NCBI GenBank assembly: GCA_016098155.1
Contig: JAAAJB010000401.1
Coordinates: 1-32,782, forward strand
DNA: 32,782 nucleotides
Direction of reading: 5' to 3'
Origin: Actinomortierella ambigua
Taxonomy: Eukaryota; Mortierellomycota; Mortierellomycetes; Mortierellales; Mortierellaceae
Below, piece by piece: positions 1,571-12,368 of this stretch; within the stretch, counting starts at the first letter, position 1, and each line of letters opens with the position of its first letter. The notes under the pieces were generated by a model. That model ran no database searches and was not told where the DNA came from. It worked only from the letters and a program-made list of their open reading frames with translations. Both the position numbers and the translations under genes were made by a program.

Positions 1571-1681
1571 CCTCCTTTCCTCTTCTCTTCTCGCACATTG
1601 ATTTTCTCATCTATCCCTTACACAATCCAGTCCTTCATTTACCCCACTCCTTCACTCGCTTCGGTTCGCTCTGTCTTCGCC

Positions 1682-3134
1682 ATGTCCTCATTGTACGCCT
1701 TCTGCCTTGCGTCGGACGACCAGCATGTGTACGCGGCTGTGTTTGACAAGCCCGAGGGTGGCGGCAACCTAATCCTTCTGCGATCTCAGGCCCATCCACC
1801 AGACTTGCAGTCAGTAAAGTGGGAGAAGCTCGCAGACTCCAAGTTTGAGCATGCAAAGTCAAAGGCCGGTCACAAGTCCAGTTGTGCGACGACCAGCGGA
1901 GCCTTCTTGGTTCTGTTTGGTCATGAGGGGCCAGGATTTGACAAGACTCTCTCTGGAGCTTACTATGATACTAACATGAGCAGGGGCAATGGCACTGTGG
2001 TCGGCCATTGGGACCCAGTCGGAGCAGGCGAGATTTGCTCCGTCTTTGGCTGTGAAGGCAAGGTCATGGCTATTCCCGGCTCGCAACCGCCTCGTTTCAG
2101 TTATGCTTTCCGAGACGTGCAAACCAACAATCTCCGATTCGCGACCTTCAGAAATGACTGGAAATTAATTGTCATGCCTTTCACCTTCTCGAAAGTGGTA
2201 AGAACCTTTACCCACCTGAGGTCTTTCCATCAAGCGCTGGTTGTATGTAAGAACCTCTCTTCTGCTTCCCCTTCAGCTATTCTCATATCATGACCCGCTC
2301 TTTCATCTCTATTAGCCGACAACACTCGTACGAAATGGCGAGCCCTATCCTTCCGTTGACTTCCTGGTGGACTACTTGAGTCCACAAGACCTGGCTTTTA
2401 TCATGATTGAGGTTGTGGAAACTCCTGAAAAGAAGAATTCCATAACCTATTTCAAATTTGGGATCGACGACCGTGGCTTCCCGATTGGAAGCCAAATTAA
2501 GAGCAACTACTCGGATACGCTTCCAGTCTCATGTGAAGACAAAGGTACATTTTCCAACGTTGGAACGCCCGTGAACGGCGAAATGTACCATCGATGCAGG
2601 GTAAGACCCCCGTCCTGTGGAGCGAAGAAGAAAGATAAGATGAGGAGGTTGAATGGACTGTAATCGGATAAGTACGAGATGATGTTCTTATCACAACATT
2701 TGTTCATCCATTCATCCTTGTAGCAAAAGCAGCCTTCAGGTTCTCAAGAGCAGGAGTCTCCGACATTCCTCTATTCTCTGCACGATAATCCGGCTCGACA
2801 GGTGGTCAAGGTCTCTGGAAAGAAGCTCCTGAGGTTTCTACCAGTGCCAGCGCCTGGAGGCGCCAATGCTACCTGGGCCATCGAATACGATATCGGTGCA
2901 GGTATCTACGGATTCCACCTATCGGGACCCCGAGCCGGAGAATACTTTACGCCTGGAATGACACCCATCAGCCTGGAGGGCAAGGTGACCACGGGACCCA
3001 TGGCGGAAACCAACGACTCTGGCATGGCTGGGTGGGCCATCGGACTCATTGTGGCCAGCTGTGTTCTGGTCATTGCGGGTCTCATCTGGTTCTGCACTCG
3101 ACGCCGTAGACGAGTGGGAAAAAATGCAGCATAA
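1682..3134 (+). CDS. Unrecognised single-pass membrane protein, 418 aa
   Basis: Family not recognised. The model is 1682..2242, 2316..2600, 2724..3134, with all junctions in phase 0 (donors GTATGTAAG and GTAAGACCC; acceptors ATTAG and TTGTAG). The ATG at 1682 follows a pyrimidine-rich leader and sits in CGCCATGT. There is no N-terminal signal peptide. The first 380 residues are soluble and rich in aromatic and glycine residues, with repeated strand-like segments that could form a propeller or beta-sandwich, but no diagnostic motif is visible. A hydrophobic segment spans about residues 386-406, followed by five arginines (408-412) and a short tail. This predicts one membrane span with a short basic cytosolic tail and the large domain on the lumenal or outer face. 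The arginine run acting as a stop-transfer signal is inference. Its role could be cell-surface or vacuolar. Confidence 0.75.
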
Positions 3135-3578
3135 ATGTGAAAATATCATCGCCCCGACAGTCTCCCCTCCCTTCACGGTCTTTCCATTTTGCACGTAGTA
3201 TCGATGATAAAGGAAAGGAGAGGCAGTTCCTTCCATTGTGATTGAGCGTTACTATCCTCATCCTGTGAACCCGGTGAACATCTTTTACTCGTTTCGTCTT
3301 TCGTCGGCTCCAGAATATATTTGACGTCTTGACATGCAAGTCCCATTGTCATTTTTCTGGACCTAGACTTCTAGAACGAGTCAATGGATTTTGTGGCTTT
3401 GCCCACTGTGTCCTTTGCACGCAGTAGTAGCCCAATTGGCCAAAAGTCCCACACGAGACTATCAAATGTTTGACCTCAGCATACTTTCTTCTCTTGCTGC
3501 ACCCTCATTTCCCTTCTCATTTCCTCATTTCTCTCTCATTTCATCTCTCAGCCTTGTCTTGGCTATTCAGCCATCTCA
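3135..3578. other. Intergenic region and leader of the recombinase gene
   Basis: No gene is seen. The first part is the 3' flank of the membrane-protein gene. From about 3480 to 3575 the plus strand is strongly pyrimidine-rich, with repeated CTCATTTC motifs, and looks like the 5' leader of the gene starting at 3579. The 9-mer TTTGCCCAC at 3398-3406 recurs at 7202-7210, on the far side of that gene. Confidence 0.5.
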
Positions 3579-6500
3579 ATGCCGAGCCACAACACTGGGA
3601 CGCGCGTCCATTTGGAACGCGGAGCGAATACAACACGGAAGAAGAATAGGCAGACAGAAGTGCCGCGCCAGAGCAAAAGAGTGAGACGGAACTCTCTCTC
3701 TGCGCCCGCTGCAACCATCACTGACACCACGACCGCCACCACAACTGAGCCATCAGCTCCTGCTCCAACTCCTGCTCCAACTCCTGCTCCAACCCCTTCT
3801 GCAACTCCTGCCCCTCTCAAAAGTGTCTTGTCGCAAGAGGAGTTAGCCCTGGCCGAAGAGCGGAAGCAGTGTGCTAACGCGGTCCTGACCGAGGTTCTCA
3901 CGAGGCCTCGAAAAGGAAGCGCGAAAGACTACTTTCCTCGGATCAAAAAATGGCAGGTACGATTGTGTTGTTGCGTTGTGTTCTTCGAATATTCAAAAAA
4001 AGATGGGGCACATACATATACTCACATACTCATCTATTGCTGCATTGTTGATGGTACAGACGTTCTGCATTGAGCACTATGACAGCGACAGCACTGTCAA
4101 CACCGAGAAGATTATTCGATACCTTGAACTTCACGCTTTCACGACCACCGTCAAGAGGCGAATCGCGCCAAAGGCAGGGCACTCTAGAGCTGTTGGCGTG
4201 AGAGAGAATCATGGAGAGCCTTCTTCTCTGTCACATCCCCCTGAGCCCCGACAGGCGCACTGGGAGGCACAGGACCCATCAGAAATAGATCCATTTGAGT
4301 GGCAAGCTAGTGATGCTCAAGCCGCCATGACTGCAGTCAACCTCGTACCCGAGAATGCAGAGGACGTGGGCGAGGACTCGGGAGACGAAGAGGATGAGGA
4401 TGCGGAAGACGAAGATAGCGAAGGTGACCAAGATGACCAAGATGACCAAGATGACCAGGACGACCAAGATGTCCAAGATGACGAAGATGACGAAGGTGAT
4501 GTAAACAGCGCTGGCGTGGGAGGCACGCGATTTACACGTACAACACGCACTACACTCACATCGCAACGAGGTAAGGGCCCTAACAGTTTGCTTTCGTATG
4601 CGTATGCTTGGCGTCGAAAGTGGACAAACATTGAAGTCCACTTCTTGTTTTGGTGATAGTTCTTGAAACAGCTGCGATGGACGAGTTTGGTCGTAAAATC
4701 ATATACACGCCACTATGTGCCGGCACGGCTAGGAATATTGTAAAGGCATTCAACTATCTGCACAGAGAACAGGCTGCTCCCCATCTTGGTAAGCTCGCCA
4801 ACCCTTTCCCATATCCTGGCGAGGATCGAGCGTTGAGGCTCGCACTAGCCACCTACCAAGAGAGGCTGGTCCATGATCGCGCCACAACAGAGTCAGCACG
4901 CACAGGAGCCCGTGAGCCGGACGTCTACACGGAGAAACTCCTTATTCGCATGTCTATGTTTTTGTGGCGAGAAGTCCCAATCCCTCAGCCGAAAGGCAAA
5001 CGCGTCTATAACACATCAAAGCGCTATCAATACATGCGGGAGCGTTTATGCATTCTGGCCCGACATCACATGCTCCTGCGTGACCAGGATCTCTGCGGCC
5101 TCAACCTGTCGGATATCTTCCAAATTCAACAACGTCATCCAGCCACCGGGTCTCGCTTGGCAACCGGTCTTGTGTTTTCCATCAGCCACGGCGATACGAA
5201 CAAGAAAGGTGTCGCTCAGTATGCAACGGCTTTTCGCCACAAAAAGCTCGTTCGTTGCACTGTGAGCGCCTTTGCATTTTACATGCTGGAGCGCTATGAG
5301 GTGAGCGAAAAGGAATGTCTTGAGCCTCCCCTAAGCACTAGCCACAGCTGAATGTCAAGCACAACGATTAACGCGTTCTTTTGGTGCATCACATTATTGT
5401 CTGCTTAAGATCAATGGAGAGGAGCTCCCCGACTTTTCAGACCCTGATGACTGGTACAATGTCAAGTTGATCCAAGGGGGAAGGGATACCCACACGGCGA
5501 TCATAGCTGTAACCAATCAGAACAGCTGCAGCGCTGTCATGCGCGCCTGTGAGGTTTCCTGCAACAAGGTGACGCATTCTGGCCGTCATTCTGGGGCGAT
5601 GGAGGCCTACGATCTAGGGCTGTCGGAGTCTGACGTTCGTCATTTTGGCCAGTGGGTCACCGGGCAGATGGAAAATTTCTATGCGCCTAAAAATCCTATT
5701 CGAGGTGCCTTCTGTATGGCTCATTTCAACCAACGCGACGAACCGTACCTGATCGAACGGGACCTTGTCACACCACCACTTGATCTCCAGCGCCTTCTCT
5801 TTGCTTGGGTGGAGAAGGCCTTGGATGCCGAGAACAGCGACGAGCCTGAAAAGCTACGACGGTGGCGTGCCGAGTGCGATCGGGAGATGGAGGGAGCTGA
5901 TCCGAATGAGGGGAGCGAGGACGACCTCTTCTGGACACCAGCAGATGCATCCAAAAAATTGTCCGCAAAGCCCAATAACAGTTTAAGGATGGACAAGATT
6001 GCGTTCCTGAAGCTGATGGTTCGGATGAGACGAGTGATTTTGCAGGACGCCGCTATCTTCATGGAGACGAAGGGCAAGGCACCATCTACGTGAGTTCTTG
6101 AGAACATCTTATTTTAATTGCTCCGTACAAAAAAAAAATAGGAGCTAATATTATGTTGACTCGTGCTAACATTTCTTCCTCCCTGTTCCCCTCCTCTCTT
6201 TTTGCGTCGGCGACCATTCCATGGAAACAGGTCCGATGATGAGAATGAGGTGGTTCTGTCACTCACGAATAGGCTCATCCGGGCTTTACCAGAGGTTTTC
6301 CAATCCGAATTGTTTCTGAGATTCAAGGCTGACCTATTGAAGGCGATCGATGAACATCGACAGGATGTCCAAGTCTTTCATGGAGCTATCCACGTCGATA
6401 ACCATACGTTCTGTGAAGGCATTAACTCCCTCGCGAGAAGTATTGGCATGGTGGAGCGGTTAGTGGAGCGGGTGGATCGCAGGGTGGAAGCTATGGGTCG

Positions 6501-7113
6501 CAGGGTGGAAGCCATAGAACGCAGGGTGGAGGCTATTGGAGGCGCAACATATCAAATGCTGGTAGAAACCATCAAGCTATCTCAACAGCAGGGTTTGATC
6601 GGGCAACAGCAACCCTTCATCAACCCTGTCAACCATCCTATCACCATCCAAGAGCATGAATTGTTGCTTCACAGCACCACTACACAGCAACAGGAAGTAC
6701 TGCAAGATCAAGAGCCACAAACGCTTCGACCACGACCATCACCGCCGCCACCACTACCATCGTCATCATCATCTCAGCACGAACTTCGATTCAAAGGGTA
6801 TGTTCTTTTGCCAGATAATGAACACTTGACTATCCGCCGTGCCTGGGATGAGTTCCATGGCGTTGTTGCCCTAGCCAAACAGCAAGATCGCGACTGGCCG
6901 TATACTAATGGACGCAAAAAGACACTTCAGCGTCGGCAGCAGTTCATCAAACTGGTGTCGGCAGAAGCAACGAAAGCAGGCTTTTCTCCTTCGGCTCCAG
7001 GCATTTACCCCTTTCTGGAACACATGCAAGCACGTTTCAAAGGCCAGAGCATCAATAGGATCCTCAATCAGCTTCGCAAAAAGGATGAGGGAGAGACAGC
7101 AGCAGCAGAGTGA
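3579..7113 (+). CDS. Crypton/Ndc10-type tyrosine recombinase with GCR1_C-like domain, 1030 aa
   Basis: Five exons: 3579..3956, 4060..4570, 4660..5300, 5410..6089, 6231..7113, all GT-AG and closing in frame. The N-terminus has basic nuclear-localisation-like patches and a PAPTPAPTPAP repeat. Residues about 227-274 are very acidic (DDQ repeats). The recombinase core covers about 300-605: R437 in LLRDQDLCGLNLSDI, lysines at 478-479 in GDTNKKG, H566 and R569 in THSGRHSGA, HFGQW at 588-592, and candidate nucleophile Y601 in NFYAPKN, 32 residues after R569. This spacing fits tyrosine recombinases. A coiled coil of seven-residue repeats (RRVEAIE type) lies at about 811-842. Residues about 922-1021 match the GCR1_C pattern (TIRRAWDEF, then RKKTLQRRQQFI). 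The related yeast Ndc10 binds centromeres, so a DNA-binding host role is an alternative to transposition. No frameshift or stop was found. Its stop lies 146 bp from the convergent UBE2O stop. Confidence 0.82.
4425..4490 (+). repeat. 9-bp GACCAAGAT-type minisatellite coding for DDQ repeats
   Basis: Imperfect tandem copies of GACCAAGAT / GACCAGGAC encode repeated Asp-Asp-Gln within the acidic tract of the recombinase gene. The repeat keeps frame because its unit is a multiple of three. Confidence 0.85.
6463..6543 (+). repeat. 21-bp tandem repeat coding for a heptad coiled coil
   Basis: Three to four tandem units built on CGCAGGGTGGAAGCTAT encode seven-residue repeats of the form RRVEAIE in the last exon of the recombinase gene. 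Valine and isoleucine recur at a/d-like positions, so the segment probably oligomerises. Neighbouring units such as GTGGAGCGGTTAGTGGAGCG extend the pattern upstream. Confidence 0.85.
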
Positions 7114-7259
7114 GGATGAGGAGGAAACAGAGGCGACAGAGATGAGGGGAAGGGCGGGGGGGGGAGGGGAGGCCAAAAGTAAATAGTCTCATAAACATGG
7201 GTTTGCCCACCAGTATCGAATTTATGGCTTTCTTATTGGGAGCGAGGGTAGTCATGTGG

Positions 7260-10200
7260 CTAATCTTCGAGAAAAGAGCTGAGAGCGTCAATATGCTTCT
7301 TCAGCACTCGGAGTGCTCCACGGCTGATGTGTGTCATCTCGTACGGTTCCATGGCGAGCGAGAAGCCCGAAGGTTCCAAGTCTTCGTCATTGCTGCCATT
7401 CTCGTGGCTAGGTGGTTGCGATGTCTCCATAGCCTCCGCCGCTGTCGCTGCTGCCGCCTCCTTCCCTTTCTCTTCCTTCTTGGCCTTGGCATCCAAGCTT
7501 TCGCGACGGCCCGCATCGCCGCCATCAGTCGCTCCAGTCACCTGTGCTGCTTCAACAGAGGGTGATCCCTGGTAAGGAGCACCGGGTGGGTTGCTGCTGC
7601 TGCTGCTGCCGCCGCCCATGGTCTCTTCGATCACCTCGACGATGATGCTCTCGTCATCATCACTCGTTGCATCTGCTGCCGTCTCATTGGGCGATTTACC
7701 ATGCTTGTCCTTATCCTTCTCCTTTTGGCGGTCCTCCTCTGCCTGAAGTTCTTCTGAGCGAGCAATGAGTTCAAAGCCTTGGATCACAGCGTGTTCCAGG
7801 TTCTGTCTCTCAAAGTAAAAATGTTGGACTTCTTTGATGAACGGTACCGGAGGATTGTTGAGAATCGTGTGGATAGACTAATCGTAAAGAACCAGACAAA
7901 CAGAAAGCAAACAAACAAAAGAATATTAATAAGTAGGGAAGGTTTCGTGCATGCATGTCGTTTTTTTTTCTCCTCTCAAAACTTTGTGTTCATGTTTCTG
8001 TTTCTGTCCCTGAAGTGTTGGAAATAGCTGAGAGACCGGGAATACCCAATCTCTTTCTCAATTCTCGTACCTTCAGCGTGAGAAGGTACACCTTCTCATT
8101 GTACAGAGCGGAATTTCTAGAAGCCTCAAGGGTACCGATGAATTTTTCGAATCTATCAATCATGAAAGTGAAAGTAGCATGGAGGAGAGAACAAAAAAAA
8201 AAGAGTCAATGGATGATAGGTTGTAATGAATCAAAGAATGTTCTCCAGCACTGTGTCCTCAAAGAGCATATCACATACCCAGTTTCGTTGTAGTAAGGAT
8301 GGGGCACTAGGACAAGTCCTTGCAAGGAAATGAGGAGCTGTAGACAAAATAGATTAAGGTGCATGAGATTCAAGCGGACAAACACAGAGTGCGACTCCCG
8401 GCTAATCATCGTCCAGCGCACACTTTCTTTCGGTTTGTACCTGGAGGATACTTGAGTTGGGTGTCCATGTTTCCGTCTCATCTTTTCCATGCCAGGTGTT
8501 CAATAGACTAAGACAAACACCGCCATCTAGAACACAAAGAAGTCCAGAAAAAAATAGGATGAAGTATGAATGTCGTTAGGCATATTTATCCGAATGAAAC
8601 CATGTTTCCTTTTGCCTTTAGTTGTGCCTGAACTTTACCTTCATAGAGATTAGGGTTGATCCGACCAACACCTCCAGTCCAAGAGTGGAAATAGGCTCTA
8701 GGTGGCTATTAACGTTCGTAGTTACCGTAGGAAAAAAAAGTATAACGATGATCGTTCTCAGCCACGTGTACAGTCCCTTCTCGCTTTGAACAAATGCCCA
8801 CCGCCAACCTTGGAACACGCATATCTCCCCCATCCCTGTCTTACCTGTTGAGGGAACTGATCCGGAAGATAAAGATCAAACATAAACAGGGCATCTTCAT
8901 ATGGCGTCTGCTCCGGGCCTGCAACCAGGACGCGCAACAAGTCCAGCCTGGACTCAAAGGCGCGGACGCGGATGCCGTCCGGCAAGGACGTTGACATGAT
9001 CGAGTGCTCGGCACGGACGCGGCGGATCCACTGACGAGGCTTATCGCGCGTCGAACCGCCGGCGGACAAAAATTGGTGGTCCTCCGGCACGTTCTCGACG
9101 ACCAAGAAGCTCCTCCAGTTCTTGTGCTCGGCATAATTCCGCACGGCGATTGTGTGGGCCAGCATCGCATCCCATGTGGGTTTTTTCGCCTTTGGCAAGG
9201 TGGTTGAAAGAGTGTTGAATGCACCCACCGTGGCGACAGCGGGGGCCAGTGTCCTTGTGCTGATGGTGCCATTGTTATCCGCTGGTTTTGGGACTTTGGC
9301 TTTTTTATCAATATCCTCTGTTGCCTGTCCATCAACACCATGCGTCATCGTTGTCGTGGCCTTCCTGGCCTCGGGGCCGTCTAGCTCTTTCCTGTCTCCA
9401 TCCTCGTTCTCAGCCTCCGAGTCTGTCTCCCAGCTATCGTCCGAACTGCCATCGGCCGTGTCGTCAAAATTATATTCTTCAAACTGCACGCCCTCGTTCT
9501 CGTCGTCGCCTTCACCATCGCCTACCTCGTCCTCGTCGTCGACGACCATCAGCCTACCCACAGAGATCTCCTCCTCGGTACCATCCAAGAACCGCACTAG
9601 CGCTGTGGGTCGGTCGGTGTGGACCTTCCAGATCTGACCAAACCAGTTGACCTGTATCCTCATCGCCTCGAGATCCTTGAGTGTCTGCGCCTGCTGCTCG
9701 GCCGTGCTGCCTGCTCCGTTGGTTTGTCCATGAGAGGTGACATCACCACCGTTCAAACCATCGTCCATGCTGTTGTCTCGAGGCAGCCCTGGTCCATCGC
9801 GGTACAGGAGCGGGTACATAGTCCTTGGGGTCATCTTGTTGGTCTCGGAAATATAGCGATCCAGAGCCTCGACGCCCTCGATCCCATAGCGTCGGAGCAA
9901 GACGGGGGCGCGTCGTTCGATCCACTCGGATCCGATCTGGGCGTCGTCCATCGAGGTGATCCCTTCCAGTTTTAACAGGGCCTTTTGTTCACGGATCAGC
10001 TCATGAAAAATCTCGTTGCCTCGGTTGACGACCATGAGGATATCGTCGACACTCGGGGCCGACTCGGACATCAACAAGGAGGCCTCTTCCCGGTCACGGC
10101 TGACAATGACCTTGTCGCCTTTGCAAAATTTGAGGTCTGGATGCGAGACAATCTCATAGAGTGACAACTCCTCGGCTTGTTCGTCCAGCCCGGTTTCACG

Positions 10201-12368
10201 TTCCGCGCCAAACCATTTCACGAGGGCCGTACGCGCGTTGGCGTTGACGGATTGGACAATGCCCAGCTTGTCGGCCTTGGCCCGGTCAAGGGCCACCTGT
10301 CCACCTGGTCGGTCCTGTAGCACTTCACCGGCTTTCAAAAGGACATAGTCGGCCGGCCAGACATCTTGGTCGTCCACGTTCAGGTATGGTATCAAAGACG
10401 GCGCTGGTACGTTTTCGGAAATGCTGAGATCCTGCCATTGGACCGTCACATGAGTGGTCGTCTTGATCACTTTCTAACCTCAGTTTAAATGTGATAGAGA
10501 GTAATAATCATTAATATAAAGTTATATTATGTAGTATCCAACATTTTATCTCACATACGCACACACGCACACACACAGTAAAGTATCATACCATCTCCTC
10601 TGTTGTAAATTTGAAAGCATGATCATGTTCCTCATGCGGACACATCTGACGAGTGACACGGCTCCTAACGTAAGGGCAGGTTCCAACTAGACCCCGCTCT
10701 ATTTTTTTTTTTTTTTTTTTTTTTTTTTGGTGAGAGCGAGCATGAAAGAAAAGCAATGACAGTATTAGATATACACATTGTGTATCCCTCAAATAATGAA
10801 ACGAAGAAAGAAAAAAGAGTACCTTCCAAAACAGCAGGATCCACAATCTTGACACGGTCCATAAGCTCATAGGTGCAATGCTGCTCAGCATCCTTGAAGA
10901 CGATGATGTTGGCAAAGTCGTCCAGGGTGCTAGGAGGAGGGGTGACAGCAGGTGTCTGATCCAGCGATAGTGGGTTGTATGAGATCCAATTGACCGTGAT
11001 CGACACAGCTTCACATCGCAGCAGAAAGCCTTGGCGGTGCGAAGGTTGGTATTGTCCCGTGAGATATTGGGCGTTCTTGAATACTTTGCTTGGAGCTCGC
11101 ACCGCCTAAAGAGTAGCGGAGAGGGAGAGTAATAGGTAGAGACGGAGGGAGATGAAGTGATAAGGTGGGTGATGGGGGGGGGGGGATGTTAATTTCGGAA
11201 AAAGGAAAAAGTCGGCACACGACAAATGTATTTTCGCCAATGTAATAGAGCATCAAAAGTATGAGAGAGTGTGAGAAAAAAAAAGGCCAGTGATGCTAGG
11301 GAAATAATGGCCGGAGATACTTACAAGGCCAGGCACAAGCACGTCTGGGAAGAACATGGATCGATCATGGACGACATCACGGATATCAAGCTCATCAGGA
11401 TCCTTGACGACGCAGATATGGCCATCGCTTAAAATGATGGTGACCTCCTCTTCGACCTCCTCAATGACGCCAAGCCAATTATCGTACAGGATCCGACGAT
11501 CGACAGCAAAGTCCTTGGCAAAGTCGACCGCGCACGCATCCACACTGGTGAATTTCGTCATGGGCGGACAGATCATCTCCAGGTCCAGCGTCATCTTTAC
11601 ATCTACGACCGTACCCGACTGCACATCGTTGGGCGACCGCTTCACCACATCCCCGTGGCTGAACGATCGGTCCGTCACTATCAGTTCGTCTTCGTGCACT
11701 ATCGCTGGCGCGGATCCGTCGGACCAATGAACTACGACGTGATGAAGCGGAGGCTATGAAAGCGGGGGAGTTTTTTTTTTTTTTTTAAATGGTTAGGAAA
11801 AAATGGGGAAGGGGCAGGGGTTTACCCAAAGGGGGGGGGNNNNNNNNNNTTGTTTTTTTTTGTGAAAGGAGGGCGGGACAATGGTGAGTGGCAGTTGGTT
11901 ACCCAAAAGGGGGGGGGGTCGAGAAGATTGAAATGCAGGAGGTGCCAGGGAGGCGAGGAGAGGGGTAAAAGGGAGGGGGCCAAATCGGGATCTCCATCTA
12001 CAAGATGGTTAAGTCAAGAAACCCCCCCCCCCCCGTAGTTAACGACAGTGGCTCCGATAGGTGGAAAAAGACGCGAGGACTTACTGTGCCGGCGAGCACG
12101 TCGTCGTCGTCCGAGTCGGATTCATGGTCCTCAAAGTCGTGCCAGGTCTTGATGACAAGGCCTTGCAAGCCCGGCTTGGTCTTGTGCTCGACAGTGTCCT
12201 CAAGGAAGACCTATAAGGGAGAGAGCGAGAGAGAAAGTGACCGTTTGGATGGGGGCCAATGGGATGGCAATGAGAAACTGTCGATGGAGAGGAGTTTCAG
12301 TGCATGGTTGCCAAGGCCTAGTGACTAAAAAGGAGGTGTACCTTCGCCGTAAAGTAGGGCTTGGTCAT
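7260..12368 (-). CDS. UBE2O: UBE2O-type E2/E3 hybrid ubiquitin ligase, about 1170 aa
   Basis: Eleven exons on the minus strand: 12342..12368, 12085..12210, 11325..11753, 10823..11105, 10592..10698, 8845..10473, 8639..8705, 8441..8526, 8279..8337, 8071..8152, 7260..7877. They sum to 1171 codons with stop and every phase matches. UBE2O attaches ubiquitin without a separate E3, known substrates including orphan ribosomal proteins. SH3-like CR domains lie upstream (VVVHWSDGSAPAIV; LVKWFGAERETG; VTVQWQDLS). An acidic linker follows (about 620-690). The UBC fold covers about 800-935 with an NPN motif in place of the usual HPN, then catalytic C894 in GGVCLSLLNTW. A charged, low-complexity C-terminal tail ends with a helical stretch. 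The short first exon (MTKPYFTAK) is the preferred start, although the frame is open upstream to 12692. The exon 5 acceptor is uncertain (10698 or 10686, both in frame). An assembly gap lies in intron 2. Confidence 0.88.
10557..10577. repeat. AC-rich microsatellite in a UBE2O intron
   Basis: ACACACGCACACACACAG-type repeat within the intron between exons 5 and 6 of UBE2O. It reads as a GT repeat on the transcribed strand. No function seen. Confidence 0.8.
10701..10729. repeat. Long T homopolymer at a UBE2O splice acceptor
   Basis: About 27 T in a row on the plus strand, i.e. a poly-A run in the sense direction of UBE2O, directly preceding the first candidate acceptor of exon 5. The length is likely to be unreliable in the assembly. 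Confidence 0.9.
11840..11849. other. Assembly gap of ten N
   Basis: Ten N follow a run of nine G and precede a T-rich run. The gap is inside UBE2O intron 2 (11754..12084). The flanking exons join in phase 0 and the protein reads continuously across them, so a lost exon is unlikely. The true gap length is unknown. Confidence 0.98.

Follow-up and report, generated by a model that had tools for sequence, protein, structure and literature searches.

An apparently intact gene for a Crypton/Ndc10-like recombinase in the soil fungus Actinomortierella ambigua raises the question of whether it belongs to a DNA element that has moved recently or has been kept by its host for DNA binding, the two possibilities offered by an earlier reading of the letters without database searches (the sequence-only reading). 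We analyzed the whole 32,782-nucleotide stretch that carries the gene (hereafter, the window), which is contig C337 of the genome searched (33.8 Mb, 846 contigs). The explanation that we favor, with modest confidence, is that the gene encodes the recombinase of a CryptonF-like DNA element of the Mortierellaceae that is long resident and now largely immobile, and that the protein would bind DNA and cut it poorly or not at all.

The recombinase gene lies on the forward strand, flanked by the 3' ends of two genes that converge on it, with stops at 3134 (upstream gene) and 7260 (UBE2O). In the predicted model, for which the splice sites were picked by eye, five exons within 3579-7113 join into a frame of 1030 amino acids without a stop, from the ATG at position 3579 to the stop codon at 7111-7113; introns 1-4 are 103, 89, 109, and 141 bp long, and all have GT-AG borders. 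Exon 1 (3579..3956, residues 1-126) encodes a low-complexity N-terminus and the first core-binding helices, as judged from the splicing and from similarity to the relative P0001. According to the splicing and alignment, exon 2 (4060..4570, residues 127-296) encodes the remaining N-terminal helices and then an acidic linker, and exon 4 (5410..6089) carries H566, R569, W592, and Y601 and completes the catalytic domain. Exon 3 (4660..5300, residues 297-510) contains the second part of the core-binding region, box I with R437, and the beta-hairpin with D475, and exon 5 (6231..7113) comprises the heptad region (residues about 805-845), a Q/P-rich linker, and a GCR1_C-like C-terminal domain (about 895-1030). 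A dead gene read through chance splice sites might produce such a model, given that the sites were selected by eye in a prediction, but this is scarcely credible: four GT-AG introns accompany 1030 open codons, alignments to independent proteins cross the exon junctions, and the matches on C387, C112, C146, C578, C303, and C492 are likewise interrupted where intron 3 lies, with C387 having a GT-AG intron at exactly that place. The uninterrupted five-exon frame of the sequence-only reading therefore held, coordinates included, although an open frame of 1030 codons is equally expected of a recently moved or a useful gene.

Scanning of the whole protein against Pfam listed five families at E ≤ 1, of which only NDC10_II (PF16787) exceeded its cut-off, at 96.1 bits (E = 2.7e-27; cut-off, 26.3). 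This tyrosine-recombinase domain spans residues 426-729 (5046..6066, + strand) in exons 3 and 4, with intron 3 inside it. COG6_N and Nop14 scored below threshold where the heptads and the acidic tract lie, and DUF3435, the domain borne by Starship captains, was absent from the five families. Among solved structures, no sequence-level match to Ndc10 was obtained for the window protein. Relatives listed in the single-protein search were proteins of E. parvispora (45% identity), M. alpina (37%; nine member sequences), Podila humilis (32%), and Panaeolus cyanescens (27%). An alignment-based protein search returned at least 15 proteins at E ≤ 1e-5, three of them in common with the single-protein search; it added proteins of Linnemannia, Mucor, Pilaira, and Trichomonascus, a second E. 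parvispora protein, and environmental proteins. Among the matches listed, the partial Linnemannia proteins were 43-46% identical to the window protein; this value and those for E. parvispora, M. alpina, and Podila humilis apply to the parts covered. The Ndc10-domain proteins of the Mortierellaceae (E. parvispora EMPS_07769 and those of M. alpina, Podila humilis, and Linnemannia) are unnamed. One of them, Podila humilis BG004_003464 (P0003), has a gene model without the hairpin and box II and with leucine-rich repeats at its end, and is a candidate fusion or misannotation. A tree of 25 rows over residues 517-735 grouped the window with C387 and the Mortierellaceae proteins (83/90, not starred), and the end branch of the window was 0.32, compared with a tree median of 0.42.

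The profile search proposed as a check on the Crypton/Ndc10-like identity thus matched NDC10_II far beyond chance, and this score and the family relatives confirmed that identity. As judged from its domain and relatives, the gene is a CryptonF-like recombinase of a low-copy family with relatives in other Mortierellaceae and in Mucorales, CryptonF elements themselves being already known. It has in common with CryptonF elements of the Crypton-Cn1 type (PMC3212892) a YR domain with R-H-R-Y, a very low copy number, and apparently a C-terminal domain of the GCR1_C type, and it differs from them in that its GCR1_C is strongly diverged, its hairpin lysine is lost, and its element ends are candidates only. 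Table 1 of the same article contains no Mortierellaceae species and one zygomycete, Rhizopus oryzae.

The GCR1_C-like domain seen by the sequence-only reading is carried by the family but stays below the Pfam cut-off in the window itself. GCR1_C was not listed for the full window protein at E ≤ 1, and the isolated C-terminal piece scored 12.8 bits (E = 0.16) against a cut-off of 23. When ten C-terminal pieces were compared, GCR1_C was listed in nine (as the first match in eight) and exceeded the cut-off in one, P0006, at 23.3 bits; C387 scored 22.4, P0010 scored 22.6, five others scored 14.2-17.5, and the piece from the C168 fragment had no GCR1_C match. The whole proteins P0001, P0002, and P0003 had no GCR1_C listing at E ≤ 10, and hhalign against four GCR1_C sequences gave probabilities of 9.6% and 17.9% over 20 columns. 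A GCR1_C-like tail was found in P0002, for which the C-terminal fold was predicted at pLDDT 72-90, and in P0003, P0005, P0006, P0008, P0009, and P0010. In contrast to the window, P0001, the closest full-length relative among the matches listed, has a low-complexity tail without GCR1_C. Because related C-terminal pieces list GCR1_C, some of them near or above the cut-off, the window domain appears to be a diverged member of the GCR1_C family.

The combination of a DDQ acidic tract with a heptad coiled coil had been regarded as unusual. Repeat analysis revealed that both are encoded by tandem repeats on the forward strand, the DDQ tract by 8.8 copies of a 9-bp unit (4421..4499) and the heptads by 2.8 copies of a 21-bp unit (6473..6530). 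The four relatives examined (P0001, P0002, P0003, and P0011) all have an acidic stretch in the same linker, with 15-19 Asp or Glu in the richest 40 linker residues, compared with 28 in the window. The M. alpina relative has long helices at 682-737 and 743-787, past the catalytic domain, in a model with pLDDT below 70. Since relatives have an acidic linker and modelled helices, the combination is not clearly unusual, and the tract and the heptads are most simply explained as family features that have expanded.

The sequence-only reading also stated that all expected recombinase residues were present, and the letters R437, K478, K479, H566, R569, and Y601 do stand at the positions named. R-H-R-Y is the catalytic tetrad of Crypton tyrosine recombinases (PMC3212892), and the alignment placed R437, H566, R569, and Y601, as well as W592, in register with the relatives. 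Ten in-genome copies can be read at all four tetrad positions; three of them (the window, C387, and C578) keep every residue, and the other seven have lost a tetrad residue. A lysine in the beta-hairpin is a general feature of tyrosine recombinases and is important for catalysis in Cre and its kin. The conserved lysine of this family, in the GKTN hairpin, corresponds to position 475, which is Lys in 15 of 17 other sequences (including the Mortierellaceae relatives P0001 and P0002), Thr in C99, Arg in L. gamsii P0011, and Asp in the window, where the codon GAT (5193..5195, + strand) differs from the Lys codons AAA and AAG by at least two bases. K478 and K479 are situated in the same hairpin, two and three residues past D475; Lys occurs at 478 in 7 and at 479 in 5 of 17 relatives, nearly always alongside K475. 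The window also differs at two arginines that do not vary among the close relatives compared: position 442 is Cys in the window and Arg in 17 of 19 others, and position 591 is Gln in the window and Arg in 14 of 22 others. The claim therefore stood for the R-H-R-Y tetrad and failed for the lysine, neither K478 nor K479 being the conserved one, and for R442 and R591.

We further examined the window at positions that do not vary among ten other rows from the Mortierellaceae clade. The window departed from these at 12 of 124 positions, C387 at 19 of 131, P0002 at 24 of 136, and P0001 at 9 of 121, and rows spanning the second half only departed at 0-6%. The window departures numbered 5 of 20 inside narrow active-site boxes versus 7 of 104 outside (Fisher p = 0.025), and 6 of 35 versus 6 of 89 when the boxes were wider (p = 0.081). 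None of the 9 departures of P0001, none of the 24 of P0002, and 2 of the 19 of C387 fell inside the four narrow boxes. Adding P0003 and P0011 left 96 positions, with K475 no longer invariant; the window departed at seven of these, and three of the seven fell in the boxes. Because the boxes were drawn after the alignment had been seen, the clustering is a lead and not proof. The changes of the hairpin lysine, R442, and R591 and the clustering in the active-site boxes suggest that the window copy is probably impaired in catalysis. Against this, K478 or K479 might stand in for the lost lysine of their hairpin, the clustering test is weak with the wider boxes and with the two added rows, and Gln at position 439, which the window has, is likewise found in C99, P0014, and P0015.

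A Crypton that is still mobile would account differently for the locus: R-H-R-Y would suffice, K478 and K479 would give the lysine, and the element would have moved recently between the convergent genes, leaving a 10-bp repeat. The intact tetrad and frame agree with this account, which we nonetheless consider unlikely in view of the changed lysine and arginines and of the copies found elsewhere. A DNA search with 3135-7260 as the query returned, besides the window itself, pieces on C168, C1, C751, and C648 (a lower bound), none of them above 83% identity, and revealed no close intact relative in the 33.8 Mb. C168:111970-112797 corresponds to the 3' end (window 6336-7153) in two pieces of 69% and 83% identity, and C1 has the 5' part at 72-78%, with three pieces of 73-75% in this search; the pieces on both contigs are truncated and are either frameshifted or stopped. 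The C751 match (74%) is the 3' end of a copy of the upstream gene, and the two short C648 matches fall in a low-complexity stretch of exon 1. DNA searches with the flanks, again as a lower bound, found no other copy of the 236 bases before the ATG or of 7100-7260, so that both flanks are single in the genome. At the protein level, NDC10_II matches at E ≤ 1 were present on 11 contigs (the window and ten others), and the window protein had at least 32 matches on 18 contigs, its own five included. Protein identity was 79% and 51% for C168 and 25-50% for the remaining matches beyond the window, and the latter give the impression of old, deeply separated lineages rather than of recent copies. With only pieces of at most 83% DNA identity elsewhere and with single flanks, the proposal of recent activity was not supported. 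Very low copy number is usual for Cryptons in most known hosts (PMC3212892), and thus low copy number does not show immobility; the same article does not bear out the premise that Crypton families are usually degraded, describing very low copy number as usual instead.

Other copies in the genome differ in their state. The matched stretch C578:44117-45589 has no stops and keeps R-H-R-Y, the hairpin lysine, and the Trp, and C387:12740-14971 also has no stops and keeps R-H-R-Y, with Cys for the Trp. C28 (L002) and C492 (L001) score above the cut-offs for both NDC10_II and GCR1_C, have no stops in their matched stretches, and have lost the tetrad His; they are candidate Gcr1/Msn1-like DNA-binding proteins.

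The surroundings of the gene bear on the same account of a still mobile element. The 10-bp direct repeat GGCCAAAAGT occurs just outside the gene, at 3438..3447 (left copy) and 7171..7180 (right copy; both + strand), and at these two sites only within the window, which would fit a recent move. However, the repeat is not significant: a common 10-mer or longer was found in 39 of 192 random interval pairs, and a repeat at least as complex as GGCCAAAAGT in 191 of 2893. The longest inverted match was 10 bp, a length reached in 26 of 192 random pairs. The known direct repeats of Cryptons are 4-6 bp long, and CryptonF elements have such short repeats and no TIR, in contrast to the 10 bp of the window candidate (PMC3212892). 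Because random pairs often share such repeats, GGCCAAAAGT is a candidate element end only. The only empty-site candidate, C751, was rejected when it turned out to be a duplicated upstream gene. The upstream gene of the window (1656-3342) has an 86% identical copy at C751:994-2715, and the homology ends 237 bp before the recombinase ATG; it shows one membrane segment at its end by eye and no Pfam match in the two frames scanned.

On the other side, UBE2O, an E2/E3 ubiquitin enzyme, is a host gene on the reverse strand at approximately 7260..11753. Its protein, pieced together from open frames, matches two A. ambigua records, one at 98% identity with 80% covered and the other at 75%, and one of A. 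wolfii at 67%. A translated frame at about 11760-12038 contains XXXX, which points to a short run of unknown or masked bases in the assembly. Elsewhere in the window, 692-1270 is a repeat whose inverted arms (770-806 and 1203-1239) are imperfect, at 81%; it has at least 43 matches, the window included, among them a near full-length copy of 92% identity on C637, and part of it is found close to the recombinase remnant on C1. This repeat looks like a small non-autonomous DNA element.

The distribution of relatives bears on mobility and on host service alike. Actinomortierella proteins were absent from the relatives listed, although the same database contains three Actinomortierella UBE2O proteins; this agrees with a patchy element and speaks against a gene in host service. 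As evidence of patchiness the absence is weak because gene callers often mask Crypton-type genes and because it holds for the matches listed. The two E. parvispora relatives are situated on contigs of 2,100,617 and 1,910,511 bases, and the contig that carries UBE2O has 2,901,438 bases; the relatives are therefore not beside UBE2O there, which also counts against host service, though they may be paralogues.

Host service would mean that the gene is entering, or already in, use as a DNA-binding protein, like the yeast proteins Ndc10, Gcr1, Msn1, and Hot1, all descended from CryptonF proteins (PMC3212892). We regard this as a doubtful alternative, and domestication of the window gene as possible. 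The dN/dS relative to C168 was 0.27 over 228 codons and 0.22 for the C-terminal domain (dS 0.46, 125 codons), whereas the value relative to C1 was 0.46 over 207 poorly aligned codons and dS relative to C387 was saturated. At least the last part of the protein, the C-terminal domain, has been under constraint. Together with the open frame this fits host service, but purifying selection is likewise expected of a transposing lineage, and the constraint is compatible with both. Host service also agrees with the overall number of departures, which lies between the extremes of the three other long rows while the active-site boxes are eroded, and with the loss of tetrad residues from most readable copies, as the matched stretches of C131, C99, C28, and C492 lack stops despite such a loss and C28 and C492 carry GCR1_C above its cut-off. 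Nevertheless, the window keeps its tetrad, unlike the known domesticated genes: animal DUF3504 genes, which derive from Cryptons, have lost the tyrosine and the second arginine, and the catalytic site is not preserved in yeast Gcr1 or in budding-yeast Ndc10/Cbf2 of the CBF3 kinetochore complex (PMC3212892).

We thus return to a long-resident CryptonF-like recombinase, in which, as far as the sequence indicates, DNA binding has probably been kept, cutting is probably poor or absent, and the element has probably been in place for long and become immobile. By analogy with the family, the core-binding helices and the catalytic domain would clasp the element end, Y601 would cut and rejoin the DNA by way of a circular intermediate, subunits would be paired through the coiled coil, and further DNA binding would come from the GCR1_C-like domain. 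The circle model for Cryptons is that of Goodwin, as reported in PMC3212892.

The gene might, alternatively, be a Crypton recombinase early in domestication, with the frame, the DNA-binding parts, and R-H-R-Y under selection and with K475, R442, and R591 gone. This is quite improbable; if true, the lineage may repeatedly turn Crypton recombinases into DNA-binding proteins outside the yeasts. Taken alone, the window gene is mostly ordinary, having diverged within its family and changed in its active site. Cryptons, which are low in copy number and patchily known, gave rise to several yeast regulators and to a kinetochore protein (PMC3212892), and a diverse set of Mortierellaceae Cryptons at different stages of active-site loss would allow the step from a mobile recombinase to a DNA-binding protein to be studied.
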